A stretch of 64,000 bases of DNA, taken from positions 1 to 64,000 of the forward strand of contig NZ_JADNAT010000009.1 in the NCBI RefSeq assembly GCF_015550425.1. Direction: 5' to 3'. Numbering within the stretch: position 1 is the stretch's first letter; the number at the start of each line of letters is the position of its first letter. The notes under the pieces are model-generated. The model was not told the DNA's origin and ran no database searches. It saw nothing but the letters and a program-made list of their open reading frames with translations. Positions 12,794-32,159 of the stretch are shown here, one piece after another. A program made the translations under genes and the position numbers. The DNA is from Clostridium sp. 1001275B_160808_H3. GTDB taxonomy: Bacteria > Bacillota > Clostridia > Clostridiales > Clostridiaceae.

Positions 12794-13385
12794 CTTTAAT
12801 AATATAAACATAAAGTTTAATGATAGAGTTTTGTATGATGATTTTTCTATAGATTTTGAGGAGAATAATGTAAATTTTATAATGGGTGAATCAGGTATAG
12901 GTAAAAGCACTTTAATAAAATATATAAAAGATAAATTAATTTCAAGTGGAATTAAGGTTAGTGTTGTTTTTCAAGAAAATAGATTAATACCTTGGAAAAA
13001 TATATATAAGAATTTAGATATTGTAATTAAAAATGAATTAAATAAAGATGAAAGAAAAATAAAAATTAATGATATATTACAAAATATGAATCTATTAAAT
13101 TGCAAAGAATTATATCCTCATGAATTAAGTGGAGGTATGAAGCAAAGGGTTAACATAGCTAGAGCAGTAATATATGATGGGGATATCTTTATTATGGATG
13201 AACCTTTTAAAGGATTAGATAAGGAGAATAAAGAAAATATTATTAAACTAATAAAAAAGTATTTTTGCGATAATAAGAAAACAGTTATAATTATAAGCCA
13301 TGATATAAATGAAGCAATGGAATTTACAAATAAAATAATATTATTAAAAAATGAACCAGTAAAAAAAGAAATAATTAAAGTGTAA
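12786..13385 (+). CDS. ABC transporter ATP-binding protein (nitrate/sulfonate/taurine class)
   Basis: This cytoplasmic ATPase energises the importer. It has Walker A GESGIGKS, the Q-loop VFQENRLIPWKN that is characteristic of the SsuB/TauB/NrtD group, signature LSGGMKQR, Walker B IFIMDEP and the switch SHDINEA. At 199 residues it is shorter than the usual 240-260 and ends soon after the switch region. The start is TTG at 12786 behind GGGAG, overlapping the permease stop by eight bases. Confidence 0.88.
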   Translation: MINFNNINIKFNDRVLYDDFSIDFEENNVNFIMGESGIGKSTLIKYIKDKLISSGIKVSVVFQENRLIPWKNIYKNLDIVIKNELNKDERKIKINDILQNMNLLNCKELYPHELSGGMKQRVNIARAVIYDGDIFIMDEPFKGLDKENKENIIKLIKKYFCDNKKTVIIISHDINEAMEFTNKIILLKNEPVKKEIIKV

Positions 13386-13488: not shown

Positions 13489-13531
13489 TGTGATAATTGT
13501 CACGGTTTTTAGTGGTAGTTAATGATAGAAT
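13489..13531 (+). promoter_or_regulatory. CRP/FNR-family operator and -10 box of the first nitrate reductase operon
   Basis: TGTGA-N6-TCACG is at 13489-13504. A -10-like TAGAAT is at 13526-13531, so the operator is centred about 41-42 bases before the predicted transcription start. That is the class II activator geometry of CRP/FNR proteins. No good -35 is visible. A regulator of the HcpR/FNR type is the natural candidate, but none is encoded in this window. Confidence 0.6.
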
Positions 13532-15675: not shown

Positions 15676-15686
15676 GAGGATTCAAT

Positions 15687-16094
15687 ATGAAGAGAATAAA
15701 AATAGATAGATCGAAATGCGTTGGATGTTTAACTTGCACAACTGCATGTATTGTTTCTCATAATTCAGAAGATACAAGAAGTAGAATAACAATAGATAGT
15801 AATGGAAAATATGCTCCGATTTTTTGTAGACATTGTGATAGACCAGAATGTGTTTATACATGTATGACTGGTGCAATGAGCAAAGATAAGGAAACTGGAT
15901 TAGTTACTTACAATAAAGAACACTGTGCAAGTTGCTATATGTGTATAATGGCATGCCCTTATGGAGTTTTAAAAGCTGATAGTAGAGTTCATAAGGAAAT
16001 AATGAAATGTGATGCGTGTAAAGATAAGGGAACACCACAATGTGTAGAAAAGTGCCCAATGGCAGCTATTACATTAGAGGAGGTACCTAATTAA
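15687..16094 (+). CDS. Four-cluster ferredoxin-type electron transfer subunit (copy 1)
   Basis: The 135-residue protein has 16 cysteines in four CxxCxxCxxxC-like groups: 11/14/17/21, 47/50/55/59, 80/83/86/90 and 108/111/119/123. This is the pattern of DmsB/HycB-type subunits carrying four [4Fe-4S] clusters. It should pass electrons between the FAD oxidoreductase and the molybdenum subunit. An AGGAGG site precedes the ATG. The stop overlaps the next start by one base (TAATG), indicating coupled translation. Confidence 0.9.
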   Translation: MKRIKIDRSKCVGCLTCTTACIVSHNSEDTRSRITIDSNGKYAPIFCRHCDRPECVYTCMTGAMSKDKETGLVTYNKEHCASCYMCIMACPYGVLKADSRVHKEIMKCDACKDKGTPQCVEKCPMAAITLEEVPN

Positions 16095-17317
16095 TGAGAT
16101 ATATAGTTATAGGAGCATCAGCAGCTGGAATTAGTGGAGCAAAAACATTAAGAGAGTTAGATAAAGATGCAGAAATAATATTAATTTCAAAAGATACAGA
16201 AGTTTATTCAAGATGTATTTTACATCACTATATTTCAAACCATAGAAATGTAGAACAATTAAATTTCACATCAAAGAATTTCTTTGAAGAATACAATATA
16301 CAATGGATAAATAATGTTGAGGTTACTTGTGTAAATGATGAAAGTAAAACTTTAACTTTATCAAACAATGAAGTCTTAAACTTTGATAAATTAATGATTT
16401 GTAGTGGAGCTTCATCATTCATTCCACCTGTTGAAGGGTTAAGAGAAGGAAATAATGTAGTTGGTCTTAGAAATTTAGAAGATGCAATACTTATAAAAGA
16501 ACAAGCTTCTAAGGTGAAAAACGTAGTTGTATTAGGTGCTGGGCTTGTTGGAATAGATGCAGTAAGTGGACTTATAGATACAGGAGTTAATGTTTCTTTA
16601 GTAGAAATGGGAGATAAAGTTTTACCTATACAGCTAGATAAATATACTTCAGATGTTTATAAAAAGAAGTTTGAAGAAAAAGGTGTAAATTTAAAACTTG
16701 GTGTTAAAGCAGAAAAACTAATATTAGATGAAAATAAAAATCCTAAAGCATTATTAATCAATACTGGTGAAGAAATACCATGTGAATTAGTTATTGTAGC
16801 AACAGGGGTAAGATCTAATATCAATTTCTTAAGTAATAGCAATGTTGAATGTGATAGATTTGGATTAATAATAGATGAAAAAGGTAAAACTAATATTGAT
16901 GATATTTATGGTGCTGGAGATGTAACTGGAAGAAATCCAATTTGGCCAACAGCAGTGAAAGAGGGTATAATTGCTGCAAATAACATGTTAGGAAAAGAAA
17001 TGATAATGACAGATTTCTTTGGAAGCAAGAATACTATGAATTTTGTTGGTATTGCAACTATGTCTTTAGGGGATGTAGAGCCAAAGGATGAAACTTATAA
17101 AGTTGAAATAAGCATTGATGGTGAAAACTATAAAAAGATTATACACAAAGATGGTAAGATTTATGGAGCAATAATTCAAGGTGATTTATCTTATGCAGGT
17201 GTATTAACACAACTTATAAAAGAAAAAATAGATATATCAAAAGTAACAAAAAATATATTTGATATAGATTATGCAGATTTCTTCAATATAAAAAAGAATT
17301 TTGAATTTACTTATTAA
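16094..17317 (+). CDS. FAD-dependent NAD(P)H oxidoreductase of the nitrate reductase module (copy 1)
   Basis: This 407-residue pyridine nucleotide-disulphide oxidoreductase family protein has an N-terminal FAD dinucleotide fold (IGASAAGISGAKTL), a central NAD(P) fold (VVLGAGLVGIDAVSGL) and the late FAD motif DIYGAGDVTG. It is close to the N-terminal part of NirB/NasB-type reductases and lacks the redox disulphide of thioredoxin reductases. By context it should oxidise NAD(P)H and feed the ferredoxin subunit. It is NarC-like in the C. perfringens scheme. Confidence 0.85.
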   Translation: MRYIVIGASAAGISGAKTLRELDKDAEIILISKDTEVYSRCILHHYISNHRNVEQLNFTSKNFFEEYNIQWINNVEVTCVNDESKTLTLSNNEVLNFDKLMICSGASSFIPPVEGLREGNNVVGLRNLEDAILIKEQASKVKNVVVLGAGLVGIDAVSGLIDTGVNVSLVEMGDKVLPIQLDKYTSDVYKKKFEEKGVNLKLGVKAEKLILDENKNPKALLINTGEEIPCELVIVATGVRSNINFLSNSNVECDRFGLIIDEKGKTNIDDIYGAGDVTGRNPIWPTAVKEGIIAANNMLGKEMIMTDFFGSKNTMNFVGIATMSLGDVEPKDETYKVEISIDGENYKKIIHKDGKIYGAIIQGDLSYAGVLTQLIKEKIDISKVTKNIFDIDYADFFNIKKNFEFTY

Positions 17318-17372: not shown

Positions 17373-17501
17373 TTTTAATAATAGTGTACATAAAAGAAGG
17401 ATTATTATAAAAAATCTAGAACATAATAGTTAATAACATATATAATTAAAATTAAATATAGATATTAATGGTTACAAAAATATACTTAAAGGATGAAAGA
17501 T

Positions 17502-18011
17502 ATGCCAAAGGTTATTAATATAGTTGGAGAAAAGTCAAATGTAGGAAAAACATTTGTAATGGAAGGACTAATAAGAGAATTAAAAAGTAGAAACTTAAGT
17601 ATAGCAACAATAAAACATGATGTTCATGGATTTGATATTGATAAAAAAGGAAAAGATACATATAAACATAGAGAAGCAGGGTCAGAAACTGTAATAATAT
17701 CTTCAAGTTCTAGACTTGCAATAATAAAGGAATTAAAATATGAAACTAACTTATATGATCTTATAAATATGGCAAAGGATAAGGATATAATTTTAGTAGA
17801 AGGATATAAGAAAAGTAATTTAAGAAAGATAGAAGTATATAGGAGTGGGGTTAGTAGTAAAATAATAACTACTAAGAATAATCTTATAGCAGTAGCAAGT
17901 GATGTAGATTTAAATTTAAATGATGCCTTAGTTATAAATAAAGATAATTTTAAGGAACTTGCTAATTTAATAGAAAAAGAAAAAGAATTTAAATTTGAAA
18001 ATTATCAATAA
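17502..18011 (+). CDS. mobB: Molybdopterin-guanine dinucleotide biosynthesis adaptor
   Basis: This P-loop GTPase assists MobA in attaching GMP to molybdopterin. The start chosen is the ATG at 17502, with AAAGGA nine bases upstream; an ATG at 17493 is too close to that site. The 169-residue product begins MPKVINIVGEKSNVGKTFVMEGL, where the Walker A region reads GEKSNVGKT. ATIKHDVHGFDIDKKGKDTYKHREAGS and IILVEGYKKSN are family hallmarks. It precedes the riboswitch-terminator of the moeA operon and so seems to be transcribed apart from it. Confidence 0.88.
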   Translation: MPKVINIVGEKSNVGKTFVMEGLIRELKSRNLSIATIKHDVHGFDIDKKGKDTYKHREAGSETVIISSSSRLAIIKELKYETNLYDLINMAKDKDIILVEGYKKSNLRKIEVYRSGVSSKIITTKNNLIAVASDVDLNLNDALVINKDNFKELANLIEKEKEFKFENYQ

Positions 18012-18128
18012 TATTTTCTTGAGCATAGTTTACCTAAGGATTAATCTATGGATTCTATGCCTGAATTTTATATTCACAGGGTGTTAATTTGAAAAGATAG
18101 CATCTCCACGATTTGGGAAGGAAAATAA
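18012..18128 (+). promoter_or_regulatory. Structured leader resembling a molybdenum-cofactor (Moco) riboswitch
   Basis: The region starts directly after mobB. A closing stem pairs TATTTTCTT (18012-18020) with AAGGAAAATA (18118-18127). Inside are a hairpin GCATAG (18023-18028) / CTATGC (18055-18060) and a second hairpin built on CAGGG-TGTTA / TAGCA-TCTCC. The stretch CAGGG-hairpin-TCTCCACGATTTGGGAAGG parallels the E. coli moaA Moco RNA (CAGGG-hairpin-CCTCCCGTATCTGGAAAGG, recalled from memory). The downstream terminator and a moeA-led Moco operon support the assignment. A covariance-model search was not run. Confidence 0.55.
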
Positions 18129-18255
18129 GTTGATTTAAATATATTATACTTATAGAAATATAAGTCTTAAAATAATATTAAGTTTAATTTTATTTTGAGG
18201 TTTATAATTAAGTTGATTTTAGCACTATTACAGTGTTTATTTATATTTAAATTAA

Positions 18256-18297
18256 AAGCTTATTACTCACCAAATTTATGGGTAATAGGCTTTTTTT
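18256..18297 (+). terminator. Leader terminator upstream of moeA (riboswitch expression platform)
   Basis: A 13-bp stem (18256-18268 with 18280-18292, some G-U pairs) is followed by seven T, 45 bases before the moeA start. Lying between the structured leader and the gene, it should act as an attenuator. Confidence 0.8.
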
Positions 18298-18341
18298 GAA
18301 TAGAAAATTTATACACATCAACTTTTTAAAGGAGGAAAAAA

Positions 18342-19547
18342 GTGAAATCCTTTATATCATTAGAAGAAGCAATAGAAATACTAAATAATAACGTAAATAA
18401 TTTGAATATAGAAGAGGTAGATTTAATTAATGGATTAAATAGAGTAATAGGTGAAAATGTATATTCTCAAATTAATAATCCACCTTTTAATAAATCGGCA
18501 ATGGATGGGTATGCATTGATTTCTAGAGATACTGAATCAAACAATAAAAAATTAAAGGTAATAGATAAAGTCTATGCTGGAGGAAATTGTAGTAGTATTG
18601 TAAAAGAAAATACAGCAATTAGAATAATGACAGGAGCACCAATCCCTAAGGGAGCAAATGCTGTTATAAAACAAGAAGATGTAATTTTACAAGATGATTA
18701 TATTATTTTAAAGAAAAGTGTAAAAGAAAATGAAAATATCTGTATAAAGGGAGAAGACATTTCAAAAGGAGCTTTACTTTTAAATATTAATAAAAAGCTT
18801 GATTATGCTGATATTGGAATTTTAGCTAGTTCTGGATTAAAGAAAGTAAATGTATATAAAAAGCCTAAAATAGCTTTTATTAGTACAGGTGATGAAGTTA
18901 TGGATATAGGCTTAGAATTAGAAAAAGGAAAAATTTATAACAGTAATAAATATTCTATTTTATCTAGAATAAATGAATTAGGCTATGAAGCCAAATATAT
19001 AAATCATATAAATGATGATTTTAATGCAATAGGTAGTTATATAGAAGAAATTTCAAAGAAAGTTGATTTGATAATTACAACTGGAGGAGTTTCTGTTGGT
19101 GAGAAAGATTTATTAAAAGATGCTATAAATACAACAAGTGGAGAAAAACTTTTTTGGAAGATAACTATTAAGCCAGGTTCAGCAGTTTTATGTAGCAAGG
19201 TAAATAATTCAATTGTAATTAGTTTATCAGGCAATCCAACAGCAGCTTTAACAACTTTTGAATTATTAGTTAAACCAACACTTGAGAAATTATCTGGATA
19301 TAAAGAAATTAAAATAAATAGGGAAAAAGCAATATTATCACAAGACATAAAAAAGAAAAGTCCTCAAAGAAGGTTCATAAGGGGATATGTAGAAGTTGAC
19401 AATTGCAAACAATATGTACATATAACACAAACTAAATCAGGAAATGGAATACTTAGTTCTACAATAAACTCAAATTGTATAATTGAAATAGAAGCTAATA
19501 ATAATGGAAAAAATCAAGGGGATTTAGTAGATATTATAAAGCTTTAG
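18342..19547 (+). CDS. moeA: Molybdopterin molybdenumtransferase
   Basis: This enzyme inserts molybdate into adenylylated molybdopterin. The 401-residue length is standard. SAMDGYAL is at residues 52-59, MTGAPIPKGANAVIKQED and STGDEVMD follow, and TTGGVSVGEKD and LSGNPTAAL mark the MoaB-like domain. The start is GTG behind AGGAGG. It is the first gene of a tight operon (moeA, mobA, mogA, MoeA-like gene, moaC, moaA, MOSC gene) behind a Moco-riboswitch-like leader. Confidence 0.95.
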   Translation: MKSFISLEEAIEILNNNVNNLNIEEVDLINGLNRVIGENVYSQINNPPFNKSAMDGYALISRDTESNNKKLKVIDKVYAGGNCSSIVKENTAIRIMTGAPIPKGANAVIKQEDVILQDDYIILKKSVKENENICIKGEDISKGALLLNINKKLDYADIGILASSGLKKVNVYKKPKIAFISTGDEVMDIGLELEKGKIYNSNKYSILSRINELGYEAKYINHINDDFNAIGSYIEEISKKVDLIITTGGVSVGEKDLLKDAINTTSGEKLFWKITIKPGSAVLCSKVNNSIVISLSGNPTAALTTFELLVKPTLEKLSGYKEIKINREKAILSQDIKKKSPQRRFIRGYVEVDNCKQYVHITQTKSGNGILSSTINSNCIIEIEANNNGKNQGDLVDIIKL

Positions 19548-19555
19548 GAGAATAT

Positions 19556-20131
19556 ATGATAAATAAAACATTAGCTATTTTAGCAGGTGGAAAAAGTAGT
19601 AGGATGAATTATAATAATAAGGCATTATTACTTTATAAAGAAAAAACTTTTATAGAAAATATAATAAGTGCTGGAGAAGATTTTGATGAAATTATTATTA
19701 TATCAAATAATAAAGAAGTATATAATAAGTTTTCATTGAAGGTATTTAGTGATATCTACTTGGGAAATGGTCCTTTATGTGGAATACATTCAGCACTTAA
19801 AAACTCAAAAAATGATAAAGTTTTATGTATTGCTTGTGACATGCCTTTAATTACAAAAGAGACTTTAAATTTAATAGGAAATGTGGATGAAGAATACGAG
19901 GTTCTAATTCCTAAAATTAATGAAAAGCTACAACCTTTGTGTTCAGTGTATTCTAAGAGGTTAATACCTAAAATTGAAAATGCTTTAATAAAAAATGAAA
20001 ATAAATTGCAAAAATTTATAATGTCAACAAAATACAAAGTATTAGAAGATAAAAAATACGAGAAGTTAAATGAGATAGATTTTTCAAATATAAATACAGT
20101 TAATGATTATAAAGACTTGGAGGAGATTTAA
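19556..20131 (+). CDS. mobA: Molybdenum cofactor guanylyltransferase
   Basis: MobA transfers GMP from GTP to Mo-molybdopterin, giving the MGD form needed by the nitrate reductase subunits. The 191-residue product has the nucleotidyltransferase motif LAGGKSSRM at residues 9-17, GPLCGIHSALK and the metal-binding ACDMPL. RBS TAGGAGA. Its stop shares one base with the mogA start (TAATG). Confidence 0.92.
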   Translation: MINKTLAILAGGKSSRMNYNNKALLLYKEKTFIENIISAGEDFDEIIIISNNKEVYNKFSLKVFSDIYLGNGPLCGIHSALKNSKNDKVLCIACDMPLITKETLNLIGNVDEEYEVLIPKINEKLQPLCSVYSKRLIPKIENALIKNENKLQKFIMSTKYKVLEDKKYEKLNEIDFSNINTVNDYKDLEEI

Positions 20132-20622
20132 TGTATACTGTTGGAATAATAACAAGTAGTGATAAAGGATACGCAGGAGAAAGAGAAGATAAAAGTGGAG
20201 CTGTTATTAAAGAAATAATAGAAAATGCAGGTTTTAAAGTAGAAAAGATGGTTATTGTACCTGATGAAAAGGAAATGTTAAAAAAAGAGTTTATAAATAT
20301 GAGTGATGAATTAAAGGTGAACTTAATATTAAGTACAGGTGGTACTGGATTCTCAAAAAGAGATATAACTCCTGAAGCAACCAAAGAAATAATTGATAGA
20401 GAGGCACCTGGAATATGTGAAGCTATAAGAATGTATAGTCTTCAAATAACTAAAAGAGCAATGCTTTCTAGAGCAGTATCAGGAATAAGAAAAGATACTT
20501 TAATAGTAAATTTACCAGGAAGTCCAAAAGCATGTGAAGAAGCTTTAGATTTTATATTAGACGAGTTAAAACATGGAATTGGTATATTAATTGGAGAAGC
20601 AAAAGAATGTGCAAGAAAATAA
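20131..20622 (+). CDS. mogA: Molybdopterin adenylyltransferase (MogA/MoaB family)
   Basis: This protein activates molybdopterin by adenylylation before molybdenum insertion by MoeA. The 163-residue product has the family core LILSTGGTGFSKRDITPEAT, REAPGICEAIRMYS and IVNLPGSPKACEEAL. Assignment to MogA over MoaB rests on the partnership with moeA here; the families are closely related. RBS GGAGGAG. Confidence 0.9.
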   Translation: MYTVGIITSSDKGYAGEREDKSGAVIKEIIENAGFKVEKMVIVPDEKEMLKKEFINMSDELKVNLILSTGGTGFSKRDITPEATKEIIDREAPGICEAIRMYSLQITKRAMLSRAVSGIRKDTLIVNLPGSPKACEEALDFILDELKHGIGILIGEAKECARK

Positions 20623-20690
20623 GTTCATTCAAAAAAATTATAAAAATGAGTAACTAGACAAATGATTAACTTTATAGGAGATGCATTATA

Positions 20691-21707
20691 ATGAAAATGA
20701 TAAGCGTATATGATTCTGTTGGTTGTATATTATCTCACGATGTTACACAAATAATACCAGGAGAATTTAAAGGAAGACTTTTTAAAAAGGGCCATATTAT
20801 AAAAGCGGAAGACATAGAAAAACTGCTATCTATAGGGAAAGAACACATTTATGTATGGGAGCCTAGTGAAGGAGAATTGCATGAAAATGATGCTGCAATT
20901 AGAATTTCAAATCTTGTACTTGGAGATGGGGTATGTAAGTCAGAAGAAATAAAAGAAGGAAAAGTTGACTTTTTTGCAGATATAGATGGAGTTTTAAAAA
21001 TAGATAAAGAAGAATTATTTAAACTTAATAGCCTTGGAGAAATAATAGTATCAACATTGCATAATAATACTCCAATAAGAAAAGGAGAAAAAATTGGTGC
21101 AACTAGAGTTATTCCATTAATAATTGATGAAGAAAAAATAATTAATGCAGAAAAATTAATAAAAGATAAAATAATTTATATAGAGGAAATAAAGCCTAAG
21201 AAATGCTTACTTATAACAACTGGTAATGAAGTTTATAGCGGAAGAATTAAAGATGCCTTTTTACCAGTTATAAAATCAAAACTTGGATATTATGGTAGTG
21301 AAGTCATTAAGCAAGTTATTTTGCCAGATTCCAAGGAAAGAATAATAGAAGAAATAAAAAATGGCTTTAAAGAAAATGTAGATATGATTATATGTACAGG
21401 AGGGATGTCAGTAGATCCAGATGATGTAACTCCAACAGCAATAAAAGAATGTGGTGGAGAACTTGTTACGTATGGATCACCAGTATTACCAGGAGCTATG
21501 TTTTTACTAGCTTATTATAAAGATATTCCAATACTTGGAGTACCAAGTTGTGCTATGTATTCAAAAAGAACAGTATTAGATTTAGTGCTGCCAAGAATAC
21601 TAGCAGATGAAAAATTAACTTTAGGTGATATAGCAGCTTATGGACATGGTGGAATGTGCTTAGATTGTAAGGTTTGTACTTTCCCACATTGTTCTTTTGG
21701 AAAATAG
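20691..21707 (+). CDS. MoeA-like molybdopterin-binding protein with a C-terminal Cys cluster
   Basis: The 338-residue protein contains a MoCF-binding domain (LLITTGNEVYSGRI, IICTGGMSVDPDDVTPTAIK) related to MoeA/MogA. It lacks the SAMDGYA segment of MoeA domain 1. The C-terminus ends in four cysteines, C323-x2-C326-x2-C329-x4-C334, in MCLDCKVCTFPHCSFGK, which could bind zinc or an Fe-S cluster. It sits between mogA and moaC, so a role in Moco synthesis, storage or regulation is likely; the exact step is unknown. RBS AGGAGATG. Confidence 0.8.
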   Translation: MKMISVYDSVGCILSHDVTQIIPGEFKGRLFKKGHIIKAEDIEKLLSIGKEHIYVWEPSEGELHENDAAIRISNLVLGDGVCKSEEIKEGKVDFFADIDGVLKIDKEELFKLNSLGEIIVSTLHNNTPIRKGEKIGATRVIPLIIDEEKIINAEKLIKDKIIYIEEIKPKKCLLITTGNEVYSGRIKDAFLPVIKSKLGYYGSEVIKQVILPDSKERIIEEIKNGFKENVDMIICTGGMSVDPDDVTPTAIKECGGELVTYGSPVLPGAMFLLAYYKDIPILGVPSCAMYSKRTVLDLVLPRILADEKLTLGDIAAYGHGGMCLDCKVCTFPHCSFGK

Positions 21708-21716
21708 GAGGATATA

Positions 21717-22211
21717 ATGAATAATAAATTTACTCATTTTGATAATAGTGGAAATGCAAGAATGGTAGATGTATCAGAAAAAAATAAAACTGAGAGAGTT
21801 GCAATTGCAGTTTCTAAAATAAAAGTAAGCAAAGAAACCTTAGAGCTTATAAAAGAAGGAAAAATAGGTAAAGGTGATGTTTTAGGTGTAGCTAGAGTTG
21901 CAGGAATAATGGCAAGTAAGCAAACATCTAATTTGATACCTATGTGCCATCCATTAATGATATCTAGTTGTAATATTGATTTTGAGATAAATGATGAAGA
22001 AAGTAGTATTGAAATAAAAGCAACTGTAAAAATAGTAGATAAAACAGGAGTTGAAATGGAGGCATTAACTGCAGCAACAATTTCAGCATTAACAATATAT
22101 GATATGTGTAAAGCTGTAGATAAAAGAATGATTATAGAAGGTACTCATTTACTTAAAAAAACAGGGGGGAAGAGCGGCGAGTTTAATTTTTATGATAGCT
22201 CTTTAAAATAA
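21717..22211 (+). CDS. moaC: Cyclic pyranopterin monophosphate synthase accessory protein
   Basis: MoaC converts the product of MoaA to cyclic pyranopterin monophosphate, the first committed pterin of Moco synthesis. The 164-residue product has the hallmark blocks [36 protein letters not shown] and [31 protein letters not shown]. moaA starts one base after its stop. Confidence 0.96.
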
Positions 22212-22212
22212 T

Positions 22213-23184
22213 ATGAAAGATAAATATAATAGAGAAATAGACTATTTAAGGATTTCATTAACTGATAATTGTAACTTAAGATGTATATATTGCATGGAAG
22301 AGAAGAATAATATTTTTCTTAAAGATGAAGATAAATTAACTAATGATGAAATATATAAAATAGTATGCGAAAGTGCAAAGCTTGGTATAAAAAAAGTTAG
22401 ATTCACTGGTGGAGAACCTTTAGTTAGGAAAGATATAGTAGATCTAATACAAAGGATAAACACTATACCAGGCATAGAAGAAATGTACTTGACTACAAAT
22501 GGAATATTACTAGAAGAAAAAGCAGAAATTCTTGCAAAATCAGGACTAAAAGGTGTTAATATAAGTTTGGATTCATTAAAGAAAGAAACCTTTAAAAGAT
22601 TAACTAGATTAGGAGATTTAAAAAAGGTACTAGCAGCAATAGATAAATGTATTTCACTTGGAATAAAAGTTAAATTAAATACAGTTATGATAGAGGGCAT
22701 TAATGATGATGAAATACTTGATTTTGTAAATTTAACTTTAGAAAAGCCAATAGATGTTAGGTTTATAGAGCTTATGCCTATTGGAGTAGGAAGTAAATAT
22801 AAAGGGATTAATAATGAAGCAATTATAAATATTATTAAAGATAATTATAAAAATTTCGAAGAAGTTAAAAGAATTAATAGTGGTGGACCAGCAACTTATA
22901 TAAAAGTAAATGGCGGTAGAGGTAAGGTTGGATTTATTAGTGCTATAAGCAATTGTTTTTGTGAGGATTGTAATAGGATTAGATTAACTTCAGAAGGTTT
23001 TTTAAAACAATGCTTACACTTTAATTATGGTATTGATTTGAAGGAATTAATTAGAAGCGGAGTTTCAGATAGTGAATTATCACATGCAATAAAAAATAGT
23101 ATTTTTGATAAGCCGGAAAAACATTTGTTTATGCAAAAAAGTAATGATAAAGAATTAAAGTTTATGAATCAAATTGGAGGATAA
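22213..23184 (+). CDS. moaA: GTP 3',8-cyclase (radical SAM)
   Basis: This radical-SAM enzyme rearranges GTP in the first step of Moco synthesis. The SAM cluster cysteines are C20, C24 and C27 (CNLRCIYC), and the C-terminal GTP-binding cluster is C250, C253 and C267. The protein ends in Gly-Gly, as MoaA proteins require for activity. The length of 323 is normal. No clear separate ribosome binding site is visible; translation may be coupled to moaC. Confidence 0.96.
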   Translation: MKDKYNREIDYLRISLTDNCNLRCIYCMEEKNNIFLKDEDKLTNDEIYKIVCESAKLGIKKVRFTGGEPLVRKDIVDLIQRINTIPGIEEMYLTTNGILLEEKAEILAKSGLKGVNISLDSLKKETFKRLTRLGDLKKVLAAIDKCISLGIKVKLNTVMIEGINDDEILDFVNLTLEKPIDVRFIELMPIGVGSKYKGINNEAIINIIKDNYKNFEEVKRINSGGPATYIKVNGGRGKVGFISAISNCFCEDCNRIRLTSEGFLKQCLHFNYGIDLKELIRSGVSDSELSHAIKNSIFDKPEKHLFMQKSNDKELKFMNQIGG

Positions 23185-23188
23185 AAAT

Positions 23189-23644
23189 ATGAGCAAGGTT
23201 TTAGCTATATGTACAAGTAAACACAAAGGAACTTTAAAAAATGAAGTTGAAGAAGCAAACTTCATAGAGGAATTTGGAATAGAAGGTGATGCTCACGCTG
23301 GTAAGTGGCATAGACAAGTAAGTTTATTAGCTTTTGAAAAAATTGATGAATTTAGAAATAAAGGTGGAAATGTTGATTTTGGTGCATTTGGAGAAAATTT
23401 AGTAGTAGATGGAATAGAATTAAATAAACTTCCAGTTGGTCAAAGATTAACAGTAGGAGAAGTACTTTTAGAAGTAACTCAAATAGGTAAGGAATGTCAT
23501 GATAAATGTGCTATATATTATCAAGTTGGAGAATGTATAATGCCTAAAAATGGTATATTTACAAGGGTATTAAAAGGTGGAAAAGTAAGAGTTGGAGATA
23601 AATGTACTTTGTTAGATAATGAAAAGAAAGTATTTACTTTATAA
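23189..23644 (+). CDS. MOSC domain protein
   Basis: MOSC domains are the sulphur-carrier domains of Moco sulphurases and related molybdenum enzymes. I choose the ATG at 23189, with GGAGG at a good distance; the in-frame TTG at 23174 lies inside moaA and in the ribosome binding site itself. The 151-residue protein shows EFGIEGDAHAGKWHRQVSLLAFE, GAFGENLVVDGIEL and the cysteine segment GKECHDKCAIYYQVGECIMPKNGIF. It is the last gene of the moeA operon, followed by a strong terminator. Its precise role with these reductases is not known. Confidence 0.88.
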   Translation: MSKVLAICTSKHKGTLKNEVEEANFIEEFGIEGDAHAGKWHRQVSLLAFEKIDEFRNKGGNVDFGAFGENLVVDGIELNKLPVGQRLTVGEVLLEVTQIGKECHDKCAIYYQVGECIMPKNGIFTRVLKGGKVRVGDKCTLLDNEKKVFTL

Positions 23645-23827: not shown

Positions 23828-25912
23828 ATGAAAGTTGTTAGATCTACTTGTAACTATTGTTCCATAGCATGTAATTTTGATTTTCATGTTGAAGATGATG
23901 GATTTATACAAAGGGTTAAGCCAGCAAAGGATTATCCTGTAAATAAAGGGTTTTGCTGTGTTAAGGGTCTTAATTTAGATAAACAAAATACTATATATGA
24001 AAATCCTGTATTACCATTACTAAGAAATGAAAAAGGGAAATTAGAACATATATCTTGGGAAAAAGCATTTAATATATTTGCAGAAAGAGTAAAAAAAATT
24101 CAAGATGAATATGGTAAAGAAAGTTTTGCATTTCTGAGTACAGGTCAATTATGTACAGAAGAAATGGCATTGGCAGGGCATATTGGAAGAACATTCTTAG
24201 GAGGGAATGGAGATGGAAATACTAGACTTTGTATGGCAACAGCAGTTGTTGCATATAAACAAAGTTTTGGGTTTGATTCTCCACCATACACATTTGAAGA
24301 TTTAGAATTATCTGATGTAATGATATTTATAGGTTGTAATCCTGTAGTAGCGCATCCAATCCTTTGGAGTAGAGTTATAAAAAATAGAAATAAAGATAAA
24401 AAAATAATAAGTATAGATCCAAGAAGAACTGAAACAGTAACTAATTCAGACATGTGGATAGATATAAAGCCTAAAAGTGATTTAAGACTTTTATATACAT
24501 TAGCAAATGTATTAATTGAAGAAGGGTGGATAGATGAAGAATTTATAAAAAATAGTACTGAAGATTTTGAAGGATTTAAAAATCATGTTAAAAAATATGA
24601 CATAAATGATGTTGAAGAGTACACAGGAATATCAAAAGGAAGAGTATTAGAATTAGCTAAAATAATACATGAAGGAAAAAGAGTATCATTTTGGTGGACT
24701 ATGGGTGTAAATCAAGGATATCAAGCTGTTAGAACTGCACAAGCCGTGATAAATTTGGCTCTTATGACTGGAAATATTGGAAGGCCTGGAACTGGAGCTA
24801 ATTCAATAACAGGTCAATGTAATGCTATGGGATCAAGATTGTTTAGTAATACTACTGGACTTTATGGTGGAGGAGAATATACTGATAAAGCTAGAAGAAA
24901 AGTAGTCGCTAAAGCTTTAGGAATTGACGAAGAGATGCTACCTAAAAAGCCTACAATACCATATAATGCAATAATTGAAGGTATAAATAATGGAACAATA
25001 AAAGCCCTTTGGGTACTAGCAACAAATCCAGTTGTATCATGGATAAATAGTTTGGAATTTAAAAAAGCAGCTGAAAAATTAGAGTTTTTAGCAGTGCAGG
25101 ATATTTATAGTGATACAGAAACCTGTAAATATGCTCATCTTATACTTCCTTCAACAAATGGGTTGAAAAAAGAAGGTGTTTTAATAAATACGGAAAGAAG
25201 ATTATCCAAGATTCAGCCAGTGCTTGAAAAGAAAGAAGATGAATTAAGTGATTATGACATATTACTAGGAATAGGAAATGCTCTTGGAATGGGAAGTCTT
25301 TTAGATAAATGGAAAACACCGAGAGATGCCTTTGAAACTTTGAAGGAATGTACTAGAAATATGCCTTGTGATATAACTGGTGTAAGCTATGATATGCTAA
25401 AGGACTCAAAGGGAATTCAATGGCCATTTAAAGAAGGAGATGATATTGAAAAAGAAGAAAGAAGATTATTTGAAGATGGAAAGTTCTATACTCCAAATAA
25501 AAAAGCAAAATTTATTTATGAAGATATAATTAATCCTCCTTTTGAGCAAAGTGAAGAATATCCATATATTTTAAATACAGGTAGAGGAACAGTTGGGCAA
25601 TGGCATACCCAAACAAGAACAAGAGAAATTCCAGATGTAGAAGCTATAATTATGAAGAAAGGGTACATAAATATAAATACTGATTTAGCAGAAGAGCTAG
25701 GTATTAAAGAAAATGATATGGTTAAAGTAAGTTCACCAAATGGAATAAGCAACCAATTCCTTGTTAAGTTAAGTAGAACTGTTAAAAAAGATCAGCTTTA
25801 TGCACCAATGCATTATATAGAAGCAAATTCTGTACTGCCATCAATATTTGATACGTACTCAAAGGAACCTAATTATAAATATGGTCCAGTAAAAATAGAA
25901 AAAATCAATTAG
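23828..25912 (+). CDS. Nitrate reductase, molybdopterin catalytic subunit (copy 2)
   Basis: This paralogue of the 13591-15675 product has the same length, 694 residues, and clear similarity throughout. The N-terminal [4Fe-4S] cysteines are C8, C11, C15 and C43 or C44. The Mo ligand is Cys135 in TRLCMATAVV, again followed by Met. SPPYTFEDLELSD and NPVVAHPILWSR match the nitrate reductase type. There is no Tat signal. It leads a second three-gene module in the same order. The two copies may differ in expression or in substrate. Confidence 0.83.
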   Translation: MKVVRSTCNYCSIACNFDFHVEDDGFIQRVKPAKDYPVNKGFCCVKGLNLDKQNTIYENPVLPLLRNEKGKLEHISWEKAFNIFAERVKKIQDEYGKESFAFLSTGQLCTEEMALAGHIGRTFLGGNGDGNTRLCMATAVVAYKQSFGFDSPPYTFEDLELSDVMIFIGCNPVVAHPILWSRVIKNRNKDKKIISIDPRRTETVTNSDMWIDIKPKSDLRLLYTLANVLIEEGWIDEEFIKNSTEDFEGFKNHVKKYDINDVEEYTGISKGRVLELAKIIHEGKRVSFWWTMGVNQGYQAVRTAQAVINLALMTGNIGRPGTGANSITGQCNAMGSRLFSNTTGLYGGGEYTDKARRKVVAKALGIDEEMLPKKPTIPYNAIIEGINNGTIKALWVLATNPVVSWINSLEFKKAAEKLEFLAVQDIYSDTETCKYAHLILPSTNGLKKEGVLINTERRLSKIQPVLEKKEDELSDYDILLGIGNALGMGSLLDKWKTPRDAFETLKECTRNMPCDITGVSYDMLKDSKGIQWPFKEGDDIEKEERRLFEDGKFYTPNKKAKFIYEDIINPPFEQSEEYPYILNTGRGTVGQWHTQTRTREIPDVEAIIMKKGYININTDLAEELGIKENDMVKVSSPNGISNQFLVKLSRTVKKDQLYAPMHYIEANSVLPSIFDTYSKEPNYKYGPVKIEKIN

Positions 25913-25921
25913 GAGATTATT

Positions 25922-26335
25922 ATGAAAAGGATAAAAATCGATAGAAAGAAATGTATAGGCTGTTTAACTTGTACAACTGCTTGTAAGGTTTCTCATGGAT
26001 GTAGAGATACAAGAGGAAGGATTGTTATTAATAGTGAAGGAAGGTATGCACCAATTTATTGTAGGCATTGCACAAGACCAGAGTGCGTATATTCATGTCC
26101 AACTGGAGCAATGAGAAGAGATGATGAAAGTGGATATGTCATATATGATAAAAGTCGTTGTGCAACATGTTATATGTGCATAATGGGTTGTCCTTATGGA
26201 GTATTAAAAATGGATTATCAAACTAATAGAGAAGTAATGAAATGTGATATGTGTCTATCTACAGATACTAAATATCCACATTGCGTAGATAGATGTCCTA
26301 TGGGAGCATTAACCTTAGAGGAGGTATATAAATAA
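25922..26335 (+). CDS. Four-cluster ferredoxin-type electron transfer subunit (copy 2)
   Basis: The 137-residue paralogue has four cysteine groups at 11/14/17/21, 47/50/55/59, 80/83/86/90 and 108/111/121/125, plus an extra Cys27. The fourth group has two more residues than copy 1. It is predicted to hold four [4Fe-4S] clusters and link the oxidoreductase to the molybdenum subunit. The RBS is AGGAGA; the stop overlaps the next ATG by one base. Confidence 0.9.
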   Translation: MKRIKIDRKKCIGCLTCTTACKVSHGCRDTRGRIVINSEGRYAPIYCRHCTRPECVYSCPTGAMRRDDESGYVIYDKSRCATCYMCIMGCPYGVLKMDYQTNREVMKCDMCLSTDTKYPHCVDRCPMGALTLEEVYK

Positions 26336-27558
26336 TGTCATATGTTATAGTAGGTGCATCAGCATCTGGAATTAATGCTGCAAGAACTATTAGAGAACAT
26401 GATAAAGATTCAGAAATAGTTTTGGTATCTAAGGATGATCATGTTTATTCAAGATGTATACTTCATCATTTTTTAGATGGGAGAAGGGATATTAAAGATT
26501 TAGACTTTACTCCTGACAACTTTTTTGAAATGTATAAAATAAAATGGATAAAAGGAGTAGAAGTTATTGGAATAGATATAAAAGAAAAATTATTAAAATT
26601 ATCTAATGAAGAAAATTTAAGTTATGATAAAGTTTTACTTGCTACTGGATCATCATCTTTTTTGCCTCCAATAGAAAATTTAAGGAGTGCTAATAATGTC
26701 ATAGGATTAAGAAATTTAGATGATGCTATAAAAATTAAAAATATTGCTCGAAAAGTAAAAAATGTTGCAATTCTAGGTGCTGGACTTGTTGGAGTTGATG
26801 CATTAGCAGGATTGCTGGATTATAACGTAAATATATCATTGATTGAAATGGGGGATAGACTACTTCCTCTTCAATTAGATAAATATGCAGCTAATATATA
26901 CGAAGAAAGATTAAAAAAAGAGGGTGTAAATTTAAAATTTGGCGTTAGGGCAGAAAAAGTAATTGTAGATGATGAAAATAATCCTATTTCTATAAAGCTT
27001 AGCACTGGAGAAGAGGTACCTTGTGAATTGATAATTGCTTGTACTGGAGTTCGATCAAATGTAGGCTTTTTAAAAGATAGTGGAGTTGAGTGTGATAAAT
27101 TTGGTCTTATAATAAATGCAAAAGGTGAAACAAATGTTAGAGATGTTTATGGAGCAGGGGATATAACAGGAAGAAATCCAATATGGCCAACTGCTGTTAA
27201 AGAAGGAATGATAGCAGCAAACAATATGGTAGGTAAAGAAAGTTTTATGGAGGATTTTTTTGGAAGCAAAAATACAATGAATTTTTGTGGAGTTGCTACA
27301 ATGTCATTAGGGTTGGTAGTAAAGCCAGATGATAGTTATGAAGAAATAACTGATATCGATGGAAAAGATTATAAGAAGATAATTTATAAAGATGGTGCAA
27401 TTTATGGAGCTATAGTTCAAGGGGATTTATCATATGTTGGAGTTTTGACTCAACTTATAAAGCAAAAAATTAATGTAGATAGAGTTAAAAAGCCTTTATT
27501 TGATATAGATTATTCTGATTTCTTTAATGAAACAGAAAACTTAGAATTTGTATATTAA
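26335..27558 (+). CDS. FAD-dependent NAD(P)H oxidoreductase of the nitrate reductase module (copy 2)
   Basis: This 407-residue paralogue matches the 16094-17317 product in length. The FAD fold is at VIVGASASGINAARTI, the NAD fold at AILGAGLVGVDALAGL, and DVYGAGDITG contacts FAD. GSKNTMNFCGVATMSLG and GAIVQGDLSYVGVLTQLIK are shared almost unchanged with copy 1. A channel-type gene starts 23 bases later, so at least four genes are probably cotranscribed. Confidence 0.85.
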   Translation: MSYVIVGASASGINAARTIREHDKDSEIVLVSKDDHVYSRCILHHFLDGRRDIKDLDFTPDNFFEMYKIKWIKGVEVIGIDIKEKLLKLSNEENLSYDKVLLATGSSSFLPPIENLRSANNVIGLRNLDDAIKIKNIARKVKNVAILGAGLVGVDALAGLLDYNVNISLIEMGDRLLPLQLDKYAANIYEERLKKEGVNLKFGVRAEKVIVDDENNPISIKLSTGEEVPCELIIACTGVRSNVGFLKDSGVECDKFGLIINAKGETNVRDVYGAGDITGRNPIWPTAVKEGMIAANNMVGKESFMEDFFGSKNTMNFCGVATMSLGLVVKPDDSYEEITDIDGKDYKKIIYKDGAIYGAIVQGDLSYVGVLTQLIKQKINVDRVKKPLFDIDYSDFFNETENLEFVY

Positions 27559-27581: not shown

Positions 27582-28532
27582 ATGGAGAAGAAATCTATAT
27601 TAAAAAAAATAAAAAATATGCCAGTACCAATTTTGCCAACAATGGTTGGGGCAGCTACTTTATCAAATGTGTATCAAATTTTAGGATATACGTGGATAAG
27701 GCATATAACAATGATATGTGCAACTATAATATTAATTGCCTATATCATGAAAATAACACTATATTTTGATACATGTAAAAGTGAATATAGTAATACGGTT
27801 CCATCAAGTCTATATGCTGGATTCACTATGATATTAATGATATTAGGATCTTATTATTTTGATTTTAATAAACTAATAGGAAAAGGTTTGTGGTATATAG
27901 GTATAATATTACATGCAATACATATAATAATTTTTACATATAAAAATGTATTTCCAGGCATAAAAAAAGAAACATTTGTACCTAGTTGGTTTGTTACGTA
28001 TAATGGAATAATGGTTTCTGCTGTAGTAGGAGTTCCTATGAATGAACCTTTTATTTGTAAGATAATAGTGTATTATGGAATAGTAGCTTTTTTATTAATA
28101 ATTCCATTTATGATTTCTAGGTTAAGAAAAGAGCCTATAGATGAAGCACTATTCCATACCCAAGCTATATTATTAGCGCCATCAAGTCTTTGTTTAGTAT
28201 GTTATTTAAATTTTATTAATAATCCTAATAAGGTTCTTATATATGTTCTATATACTATAATATTTTTGACATTACTATTTATTTTATATATGTTACCTAA
28301 GTTTTTTTCTTACACTTTTACACCAGGGTTTGCAGGGTTAACGTTCCCAATGGCAATTGGGATAGTAGCGTCAATTAAGGCATCATCATTTTTTATAAAA
28401 ATGAATAATAATTTCTTAGGTTACATTATAAAAGAAATAAGTGGAATACAAATATATATTACTACAACTATAATAGCTTTTGTTTTATATAAATTTACAC
28501 ATATATTATTTAAAAGCTTAAAAAAAAGTTAA
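27582..28532 (+). CDS. TDT/SLAC1-type transporter (first of a pair)
   Basis: The 316-residue polytopic membrane protein has about ten hydrophobic helices and belongs to the tellurite-resistance/dicarboxylate transporter (TehA/SLAC1) fold. Markers are PVPILPTMVGAATLSN, VPSWFVTYNGIMVSAVVG, FHTQAILLAPSSLC and FAGLTFPMAIG. SLAC1-type plant channels pass nitrate and chloride, and TehA is an anion channel. The position at the end of a nitrate reductase operon makes nitrate or nitrite flux a reasonable hypothesis. RBS AAAGGAG. Confidence 0.8.
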   Translation: MEKKSILKKIKNMPVPILPTMVGAATLSNVYQILGYTWIRHITMICATIILIAYIMKITLYFDTCKSEYSNTVPSSLYAGFTMILMILGSYYFDFNKLIGKGLWYIGIILHAIHIIIFTYKNVFPGIKKETFVPSWFVTYNGIMVSAVVGVPMNEPFICKIIVYYGIVAFLLIIPFMISRLRKEPIDEALFHTQAILLAPSSLCLVCYLNFINNPNKVLIYVLYTIIFLTLLFILYMLPKFFSYTFTPGFAGLTFPMAIGIVASIKASSFFIKMNNNFLGYIIKEISGIQIYITTTIIAFVLYKFTHILFKSLKKS

Positions 28533-28536
28533 AAAT

Positions 28537-28592
28537 AGCACACTTTATTGAACTAGAGTTTTCATAAATGGTTCAGTAAAGTGTGTATTTTA
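28537..28592 (+). terminator. Terminator between the two TDT/SLAC1-type genes
   Basis: CACACTTTATTGAAC and GTTCAGTAAAGTGTG pair with one mismatch over an 18-base loop, followed by T-rich sequence. It separates the second channel gene from the reductase operon. Confidence 0.75.
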
Positions 28593-28612
28593 TTAAAAAT
28601 AAAAATAGAATT

Positions 28613-28654
28613 CGTGATAAAAATCACGGTAATTATATTATTAAATGATATAAT
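28613..28654 (+). promoter_or_regulatory. CRP/FNR-family operator and -10 box of the second TDT/SLAC1-type gene
   Basis: The perfect palindrome CGTGA-N6-TCACG is at 28613-28628 and a consensus TATAAT at 28649-28654. The centre-to-centre distance is 31 bases, against 32 in front of the first reductase gene. This is class II activator geometry. Confidence 0.65.
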
Positions 28655-28774
28655 AATAGCGTTGAATTATGTTTGAAAGGCCTTTTATGCATATCTAAGT
28701 GAAAAAATTAACAATAAGTAACAAAGTTATAATGAGAATTTTATATAATTATTAAAACTGACTTAGGAGGAGTT

Positions 28775-29725
28775 ATGAAAAATAATTTAATTTTTAGAAA
28801 AATTGAAAATTTACCTGTTCCAATATTACCTACAATGGTAGGAGCAGCAACATTATCGAATATTTACTCATCGTTAGGGTATACTTGGGTAAGGCATTTA
28901 ACAATGTGGATAGCAACTTGTATTTTAATAGTATATTTAGTTAAAATTTTAGCATTCTATCCTACTTGTAAAAAAGAATATTCAAATACAGTTCCAGCGA
29001 GCCTTTATGCAGGAATAACTATGATAACAATGATATTAGGATCGTATTATTTTGATTATAATAATTCATTTGGAAAAATATTATGGTTAATAGGTCTTAT
29101 TTTACATGCAATACATATAATCATATTTACATATAGAAATGTAATTAAAGGTGTAAATAAAGATACATTTGTTCCAAGTTGGTTTGTAACTTATAATGGT
29201 ATAATGGTTTCAACAGTTGTAGGTTCTGTTATGAAAGAACCTTTGATAAGCAAGATAGTATTATATTATGGTATATTAGTATTATTATTAATATTACCAT
29301 TCATGATTATAAGATTAAGAAGGTTACCTTTAAAAGAAGCATTTTTCCATACACAAGCAATTCTATTAGCTCCATCAAGTCTTTGTGTAGTTAGTTATAT
29401 AAATGTTGTTAAAGAACCTAATAAAATTGTATTATATTTATTATATATTTTAGTAGTCATTACACTTTTATTTGTAGTGTACAAGCTACCGAAATTTTTC
29501 TCTTACAAATTTACTCCAGCTTTTGCAGGATTAACATTCCCAATGGCTATAGGTACTTTAGCTTCAATTAAAATGTCAGGTTTTTTAATTAATGAAGGAT
29601 ATGAAATGTTGGGAAATATTACAAAGCAAATCTCAGGAATACAAATATATATTACAACTGCTATAATAAGTTTTGTTTTATTTAATTTTTTCACTATGTT
29701 TATGAAAAGTTTTAAAGAAAATTAA
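28775..29725 (+). CDS. TDT/SLAC1-type transporter (second of a pair)
   Basis: This paralogue has the same length as the upstream channel gene (316 residues) and the same landmarks: PVPILPTMVGAATLSN, VPSWFVTYNGIMVSTVVG, FHTQAILLAPSSLC and FAGLTFPMAIG. It is transcribed from its own CRP/FNR-type promoter, with a terminator on either side. One of the pair may serve uptake and the other export, or they may form mixed trimers. Substrate is inferred from context only. RBS AGGAGGAG. Confidence 0.8.
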   Translation: MKNNLIFRKIENLPVPILPTMVGAATLSNIYSSLGYTWVRHLTMWIATCILIVYLVKILAFYPTCKKEYSNTVPASLYAGITMITMILGSYYFDYNNSFGKILWLIGLILHAIHIIIFTYRNVIKGVNKDTFVPSWFVTYNGIMVSTVVGSVMKEPLISKIVLYYGILVLLLILPFMIIRLRRLPLKEAFFHTQAILLAPSSLCVVSYINVVKEPNKIVLYLLYILVVITLLFVVYKLPKFFSYKFTPAFAGLTFPMAIGTLASIKMSGFLINEGYEMLGNITKQISGIQIYITTAIISFVLFNFFTMFMKSFKEN

Positions 29726-29740
29726 AATATGTTTAATTTA

Positions 29741-29781
29741 AAAGAAATTGTATCATAATAACGATACAGTTTCTTTTTTTA
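29741..29781 (+). terminator. Terminator of the second TDT/SLAC1-type gene
   Basis: AAAGAAATTGTATC (29741-29754) pairs with GATACAGTTTCTTT (29763-29776), then a T-run. Confidence 0.85.
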
Positions 29782-31501: not shown

Positions 31502-31529
31502 AAAGAAGTGGCAAAGCCACTTCTTTTTA
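31501..31529. terminator. Bidirectional terminator between the Rrf2 gene and heme oxygenase gene
   Basis: AAAAAGAAGTGGC and GCCACTTCTTTTT form a perfect 13-bp stem with a three-base loop. A- and T-runs on either side serve both convergent genes. Confidence 0.9.
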
Positions 31530-32150
31530 AAAGCATTTAGAATCTAATTCATTTGAAATTGCTATATTATAAATATATGAATTACAAATCTCAATGATAA
31601 ATTCATCTTTTTCATCTTCTGTAAGAGTAAGTGTATTTAACATATTATGATAATTCATTATATAAGATTTCATATCTCCAAGATTTTTATAAGAGTAGTA
31701 GTTTAGGCAATTGTTATTTATATTATAATGGTCTTTTAGCAAACTATAAAACATTCTACCACCAAATAAATCTGCTAAAAATCTTGTATATGCATGAGCA
31801 ATGATTAATTTTGGATTCTTTTCGCAAACATTATTAATTCTATTTACATATGCTATGGTAGATGAAAGCGGGGTGAATGAGTTAATAGATAAAATATTTT
31901 TTAAATCTTCTTTAATTAATTCAGATCTGTATAATTCTGTTGTCACAAATGGGGTAATTGTTTCTATATCCTTTAAATTGTCCAAATTATTTTCAATAGC
32001 TTTATATACATAATATAAGTTATAGATATATTCGGCATAACTTTCAACGGTAGCATTTTTATCAAGAAGTCTTCTTGTGAAACCAGTATTTTCTGCTGCT
32101 TTGTGTAATATATTACTTCTATTTTTAATTTCTATCATTAAATTATTCAT
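31527..32150 (-). CDS. Heme oxygenase
   Basis: Heme oxygenases cleave heme to biliverdin, iron and carbon monoxide. The start chosen is the ATG at 32150, with AAGGAG upstream; a GTG at 32159 lies within that site. The 207-residue all-helical product has the proximal-heme-ligand region ILHKAAENTGFTRRLL (His16 as candidate) and the distal segment AYTRFLADLFGGRMFYSLL typical of the family. It is transcribed alone. Clostridial examples help to use heme iron and lower oxygen toxicity; the role here is inferred. Confidence 0.85.
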   Translation of the reverse strand: MNNLMIEIKNRSNILHKAAENTGFTRRLLDKNATVESYAEYIYNLYYVYKAIENNLDNLKDIETITPFVTTELYRSELIKEDLKNILSINSFTPLSSTIAYVNRINNVCEKNPKLIIAHAYTRFLADLFGGRMFYSLLKDHYNINNNCLNYYSYKNLGDMKSYIMNYHNMLNTLTLTEDEKDEFIIEICNSYIYNIAISNELDSKCF

Positions 32151-32159
32151 TTTATTCAC

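Follow-up and report, generated by a model that had tools for sequence, protein, structure and literature searches.

Two SLAC1/TDT-family membrane proteins are encoded after a nitrate reductase module in the 64,000-nucleotide stretch of Clostridium sp. DNA analysed here (the window). Their position raises the question of what they carry, and for which step of nitrate reduction.

Organization of the Locus

The window was found to possess two narA-narB-narC sets (13,591–17,317 and 23,828–27,558); these and the other features located in this paragraph are on the plus strand. The first set consists of ORFs for a nitrate reductase catalytic subunit (narA1, 13,591–15,675), a 4Fe-4S subunit (narB1, 15,687–16,094) and an FAD/NAD(P)H oxidoreductase subunit (narC1, 16,094–17,317). 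The second, assigned with Pfam models, consists of narA2 for the molybdopterin catalytic subunit (23,828–25,912), narB2 for the 4Fe-4S electron-transfer subunit (25,922–26,335) and narC2 for the FAD/NAD(P)H oxidoreductase subunit (26,335–27,558). The ORF of TDT1 (27,582–28,532) begins 23 bp past narC2 and is the final gene of the four-gene unit narA2-narB2-narC2-TDT1. TDT2 (28,775–29,725) begins 242 bp past TDT1 and has its own upstream region, in which an exact-site search identified a CRP/FNR-type palindrome, GTGATAAAAATCAC (28,614–28,627), with similar sites before the stand-alone TDT genes of relatives; a terminator-like hairpin (29,740–29,777) lies between TDT2 and a cysK-like gene. The first-pass annotation, which had placed one TDT gene in the operon and the other on a CRP/FNR-type promoter, was therefore correct on both counts. 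A second palindrome, GTGATAATTGTCAC (13,490–13,503), is located 5′ of narA1. Molybdenum cofactor genes occupy the region between the two nar modules (17,493–23,644), and their homologs adjoin TDT-nar genes in relatives; judged by eye, they are taken to be mobB, moeA, mobA, mogA, moeA2, moaC, moaA and a MOSC gene. Genes for an ABC transporter (11,056–13,385), comprising a permease, an ATPase and a lipoprotein binding protein of NMT1/VitK2 type, are located about 200 bp 5′ of narA1.

The TDT1/TDT2 pair is retained at five related loci (L001–L005). In a tree of TDT proteins each copy falls in a starred four-row branch with its own counterparts from L001, L004 and L005, which indicates that the pair predates these species and that of the window. 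C. saudiense, C. cuniculi, C. celatum and their kin possess one nar set, followed by the cofactor genes and then a stand-alone TDT with the same operator (L008, L009, L013, L014, L016), and a second narA is found elsewhere in some genomes of this group. The layout of the window looks like this single-nar layout with a second narABC-TDT unit placed ahead of TDT2. A heme oxygenase family protein (PF01126, 130 bits; 31,527–32,159) is also encoded in the window, that is, in an anaerobe, 3′ of genes presumed to be cysK-like and Rrf2-like.

Identity of the Reductase

Passages of two published reports on C. ljungdahlii provide the reference for these genes. Deletion of a three-gene nar cluster was described as abolishing nitrate reduction, with nitrate use restored by complementation (PMC9124969). 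The nar set was placed 3′ of strongly nitrate-induced asr-like genes, suggested as the nitrite reductase, together with a candidate proton/nitrate symporter (PMC5640608). Exactly this gene order, with NarK in the symporter slot, was found at locus L130 of genome G517, which is taken here as C. ljungdahlii from operon order and identity. The NarABC proteins of the window have the same order and are 60–73% identical to those of L130 (64% for NarA1 and 62% for NarA2), so that by way of this locus all three subunits are homologous to the genetically proven set.

The best scores of NarA are with models and structures of formate dehydrogenase, yet this identity was rejected on the basis of a Cys-Met motif. 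An NTR motif was readable in 71 of 75 NarA ORFs, all of which have Cys-Met (NTRLCMA or NTRLCMS, the former in NarA2). The L130 enzyme, taken as the proven one, has LCMA too, while five aligned formate-dehydrogenase-type chains have selenocysteine/Cys-His or Cys-Gln at this position. The Cys-Met pair is assumed here to mark nitrate reductases. NarA of the window has no evident export signal, the Fe-S domain beginning right at the N-terminus.

Features of the TDT Proteins

TDT1 and TDT2, both of 316 aa, are 66% identical, have the TehA/SLAC1 fold and score 58.4 and 54.2 bits with PF03595 (SLAC1), for which the Pfam gathering score is 27.9; their earlier description as two paralogous TDT/SLAC1-type proteins after the second reductase module is thus upheld. 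PF03595 was the only profile matched, with no homology to NarK (MFS) found in either protein. The cut-offs of the TehA/tdt subfamily were missed (50.2 and 37.2 bits vs. 237 for TIGR00816; 49.2 and 36.9 vs. 342 for PRK10764). Haemophilus influenzae TehA (HiTehA; PDB 3m71 and others) is 16–18% identical to the window proteins, which, unlike it, share an operon with nitrate reductase, fall below these cut-offs and have the main-clade residues T139 and N141. The large N- and C-terminal regulatory regions of plant SLAC1/SLAH3 are absent from them. For one relative, P0011, one source gives the name "exfoliative toxin A/B", probably a transferred misname; its listed domain is SLAC1 (PF03595) only.

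The comparison of the pore phenylalanine that had been proposed in the first-pass annotation aligns the gating residue F255 with TehA F262 and SLAC1 F450. F255 is invariant in alignment A3 and across the main, mid, second, and low groups, 68 TDT rows in total; it was rejected as a mark of nitrate specificity, unlinked paralogs being among these rows. T139 and N141 are present in all 42 main-clade rows, and the latter residue, judging by the spacing to the conserved Gly of the fifth pore helix, would take the place of the gate residue Val336 that precedes Gly337 in AtSLAC1. These two residues mark the main clade, yet N141 is missing from other nar-linked TDT lineages and the pair is therefore no general nitrate signature.

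Association of the TDT Clade with nar Genes

Contigs were scanned for TDT relatives, and the best 80 of 179 were taken with up to 10 kb on each side. Homologs of narA, narB or narC were found at 78 of these 80 loci, the other two (L010 and L015) being cut by contig ends, and at 67 of the 80 narC is immediately 5′ of the TDT gene in the same orientation, less than 400 bp away and with a median gap of 35 bp. The same best 80 loci include asrA at 38, asrB at 39, asrC at 42 and a CRP/FNR-type regulator gene at 40; one example of each Asr subunit was tested and scored far above the cut-off of its model. Named hosts include Clostridium, Lachnospiraceae, Tissierella, Holdemanella, and Fusobacterium mortiferum. 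A plasmid of Cetobacterium somerae carries an isolated narA-narB-narC-TDT unit between ribose genes and an alpha-glucoside gene group, as expected if the unit is self-sufficient. As a control, 13 low-score TDT loci (L148–L160) had no gene labelled nar. At one nar-TDT locus (L040) several ABC transporter genes are nearby and no asr gene was labelled in the stretch.

Among 199 Clostridiaceae genomes narA (E ≤ 1e-200) was found in 44 and the clade TDT (≥386 bits) in 21, all of them among the 44 and none among the 155 without narA (Fisher p = 2e-16, kinship ignored). In Clostridium sartagoforme AAU1 (L053/G433) the TDT beside narC is interrupted, with two matching pieces; it is included in the counts. 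Several TDT-positive genomes (e.g., G004, G006, G007) have a second narA lacking its own TDT. In a class-wide draw of 393 genomes, searched for TDT only, any TDT at E ≤ 1e-5 was present in 29 and clade scores (>500 bits) were reached only in G001, G004, G018, and G174.

Outside the Clostridiaceae, three taxa were searched for narA: the family of Hungatella effluvii (G026; Lachnospiraceae; 9 of 299 genomes positive), the order of Tissierella praeacuta (G018; 4 of 130) and that of F. mortiferum (G024; 15 of 89). The clade TDT (≥375 bits) is present in 27 of these 28 narA-positive genomes, and NarK was found in none of the 28. In the sole exception, G624, the contig stops about 1 kb past narA. 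Six of the 28 had been reached via TDT loci (G015, G016, G018, G021, G024, G026); when these are excluded, the count is 21 of 22. The gap from narA to TDT, taken in 26 genomes (G624 and G985, the latter with a second-type narA match, were left out), is 1660–1829 bp in 24, which is space for narB and narC, and 3.4 and 4.0 kb in the other two. The co-occurrence survey suggested by the first-pass annotation accordingly came out against a clade scattered away from nitrate genes.

A second, divergent narA (887–936 bits) was identified in six genomes of the F. mortiferum order (L174, L176, L177, L181, L182, L183), where a TDT of a very different branch lies 11–19 bp 3′ of it and narB and narC are not adjacent. 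As this narA has its own, very divergent TDT, more than one recruitment of SLAC1-type proteins to NarA-type enzymes seems to have taken place. At a further group of loci (L136–L141) a narA-type gene is followed directly by molybdenum cofactor genes, without adjacent narB or narC, and at three of them (L139–L141) a divergent TDT reads away from narA, with GTGA-N6-TCAC sites between the two genes.

Alternation with NarK

Twenty nar loci were taken, namely 16 without a TDT right at narA, that of G580 and three with a divergent TDT. An MFS protein was found in 13 of loci L122–L135, and the seven of these proteins that were scanned have the NarK nitrate/nitrite family TIGR00886 as best match, with E values of 2e-47 to 5e-56 that are below the strict cut-off. 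With nine MFS queries, NarK (≥714 bits) was detected in 19 of the 199 Clostridiaceae genomes, all narA-positive, within 5 kb of narA in 14 and at least 20 kb away or on a different contig in five (G416, G428, G437, G456, G575). A NarK fragment of 177 bits in G488 had no narA match with it.

Of the 44 narA-positive genomes, 25 have only a nar-linked TDT, 16 only NarK, three both (G174, G437, G580) and none neither (Fisher p = 2e-9, kinship ignored). This split includes divergent TDTs beside nar or molybdenum cofactor genes (G258, G435, G432, G461, G437, G462, G580). In G462 the TDT adjoins cofactor genes on a contig lacking narA, and the nar-linked TDT of G580 scores just 145 bits; low-score TDTs away from nar in the NarK-only genomes G416, G428, G456, and G575 were not counted as nar-linked. 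The divergent lineages supply 7 of the 28 nar-linked TDTs, and without them five narA-positive genomes have neither NarK nor a clade TDT, the split for the clade TDT alone being 20 with TDT only, 18 with NarK only, one with both and five with neither (Fisher p = 5e-7, kinship ignored).

A NarA tree of 65 chosen rows, in which the three genomes with both transporters were uncounted, requires at least seven TDT/NarK swaps (6–8 across 1000 bootstrap trees), and the exchange has therefore recurred. It can also be followed in the operons, where crp-asrABC-TDT-narABC (L012) corresponds to crp-asrABC-NarK-narABC (L129–L132) and narABC-TDT-mob/moe (L073) to narABC-NarK-moe/mob (L124–L126); the position after narC is taken by TDT in most loci and by NarK in L124–L126. 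By the split and the swaps, the TDT replaces a known nitrate transporter. The two share operon slots, operator and reductase partner and are nearly mutually exclusive, but belong to unrelated sequence families, and the three genomes carrying both imply that they need not be strictly interchangeable. This alternation goes beyond what had been proposed for the locus.

A Shared Operator

The exact sequence GTGA-N6-TCAC occurs at two sites in the window, before TDT2 and before narA1, and a search of the window found no exact site before the narA2-TDT1 unit. In relatives it is located 77–173 bp (from the site centre) 5′ of main-clade stand-alone TDT genes, and it is also found 5′ of narA, asrA, and stand-alone NarK genes. 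Among genes of chosen nar loci that have 60 bp or more of intergenic DNA before them, the operator precedes narA in 25 of 64 cases, asrA in 30 of 45, TDT in 18 of 41, NarK in 6 of 9 and crp in 9 of 27, as against 7 of 602 unlabelled genes and 0 of 6 cysK genes; it preceded none of the seven testable TDT paralogs in the 13 control loci. From the shared operator, TDT and NarK appear to be in the same regulon. HcpR was not adopted as the regulator, the clostridial HcpR2 motif GTAACnnnnGTTAC, as given in a passage of the report describing it (PMC1274295), being different from GTGA-N6-TCAC. A likelier regulator is the product of the CRP/FNR-type gene found at half of the best 80 loci, mostly just before asrA. 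At one locus (L019:19706) the site is 67 bp before a modA-like gene, which suggests that molybdate uptake may be in the same regulon in some species.

Other Candidate Transporters

The first-pass annotation had overstated the absence of other candidate transporters, as FNT genes occur widely at other sites in these genomes and module 1 adjoins an ABC transporter of NMT1 type. The FNT family (FocA/NirC, PF01226), small anion channels like TDT but a separate family, was found in 22 of 29 nar-TDT genomes (L009 left out); in the 18 genomes where both positions are known, narA is on a different contig from FNT or lies 59 kb or more away. The remaining seven have no FNT, and a search of these seven, with G517 as positive control, found no NarK, so that TDT is the sole one of the three candidates there. 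Homologs of the NMT1-type ABC transporter were present beside nar1 in 5 of 10 upstream stretches, all of the C. tertium group (L162–L165, L171), in which it may perhaps be a second nitrate importer; none was labelled in L166–L170, which keep TDT.

Proposed Role in Nitrate Reduction

The reading favoured here, with a probability of roughly 0.8, is that the soluble, NAD(P)H-linked NarABC nitrate reductase of clostridia has TDT1 and TDT2 as its transporter of nitrate (and/or nitrite), the two proteins filling the role that NarK has in related genomes without TDT. It draws on the computed family, fold, gate residue, operon membership, shared operator, and NarK alternation. The association with nar supports the part in nitrate or nitrite flux first proposed for these proteins, transport itself being inferred. 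The substrate is very probably nitrate or nitrite, and nitrate entry would be the main task on somewhat better than even terms.

Nitrate would reach the cytosol through the SLAC1/TehA-type pore and be reduced to nitrite by NarABC, and the AsrABC-type reductase, for which many nar-TDT operons also have genes, would convert the nitrite to ammonium. Alternatively, nitrite would leave the cell, perhaps via the same TDT pore, and in the species of the window such exit may add to nitrate entry. Where narABC and asrABC share operons, the whole route from nitrate to ammonium would be cytosolic, so that the need is for nitrate to be brought in. Since anions leave the cell through plant SLAC1 channels, a pure channel would take up nitrate only if something draws it inward; fast reduction, exchange for nitrite, or ion coupling could keep up such influx against a membrane potential that is negative inside. 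In a passage of a published account, SLAC1 relatives are treated as voltage-dependent pores and their yeast relative Mae1 is argued to work without use of the proton gradient (PMC6765260). Given this precedent, it is plausible that reduction draws nitrate through a pore, or that nitrate is exchanged for nitrite, though channel and carrier are given about equal weight.

Uptake of nitrate is considered likelier than a role as nitrite exporter only, with nitrate entering by another way, here through the ABC transporter beside module 1. Such a role is unlikely but the strongest of the alternatives: SLAC1-type proteins favour anion efflux, the ABC genes just before narA1 are conserved in the C. tertium group, and no asrABC homolog was labelled in the window. 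Against it, the AsrC-like gene at 42 of the best 80 of 179 TDT loci means that nitrite export is not an obvious shared need, the five stretches without a labelled ABC transporter beside nar1 keep TDT, and the C. ljungdahlii gene in the slot of TDT is described in the cited passage as a candidate proton/nitrate symporter (PMC5640608). It is improbable that TDT carries some other anion for nitrate metabolism (a chloride counter-ion, formate, or a C4-dicarboxylate). Chloride or C4-dicarboxylates are indeed mentioned as cargo of its relatives TehA and Mae1 (PMC6765260), and the gate phenylalanine is no substrate mark, but a protein that alternates and exchanges slots with NarK is predicted to share its substrate. 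Least probable of all is movement of sulfite or another sulfur oxyanion, with asrABC encoding true sulfite reductases: the SLAC1-family protein Ssu1 of yeast is noted as a sulfite pump (PMC6765260), the AsrA/B/C matches are far above cut-off and a cysK-like gene is 3′ of TDT2, but C. ljungdahlii forms stoichiometric ammonium from nitrate, the asr-like genes of its operon of the same type are described as nitrate-induced and suggested as nitrite reductase (PMC5640608), the hairpin terminator separates TDT2 from cysK, before which the operator was never seen, some nar-TDT units (L081) have no asr nearby, and the NarK alternation again speaks against it.

With nitrate or nitrite transport retained as the preferred role, a broader and more tentative proposal, held at rather less than even odds, may be put forward. 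In fermentative nitrate reduction by Bacillota and Fusobacteriota, a bacterial SLAC1 branch would serve as a pore dedicated to nitrate entry (or to nitrate/nitrite exchange); it would have been exchanged with NarK repeatedly, and more than one SLAC1 lineage would have supplied partners for NarA-type enzymes. Its central gate would be polar, with Asn141 for the valine of SLAC1, and uptake would proceed by a reduction-pulled channel and not by a proton-coupled carrier. Among the open-access papers searched, judged by title or the start of the abstract, no tie of the TDT family to a bacterial nitrate reductase was found.

In fermenting anaerobes, gut Clostridia, Lachnospiraceae, and Fusobacteria among them, the reduction of nitrate to ammonium starts with nitrate entry. 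If the role proposed here is true, a gene known just as a "TDT family transporter" would be predicted to encode the nitrate transporter in dozens of species, NarK being absent from many of them, and the plant nitrate channel SLAC1 would gain bacterial relatives with the same cargo.
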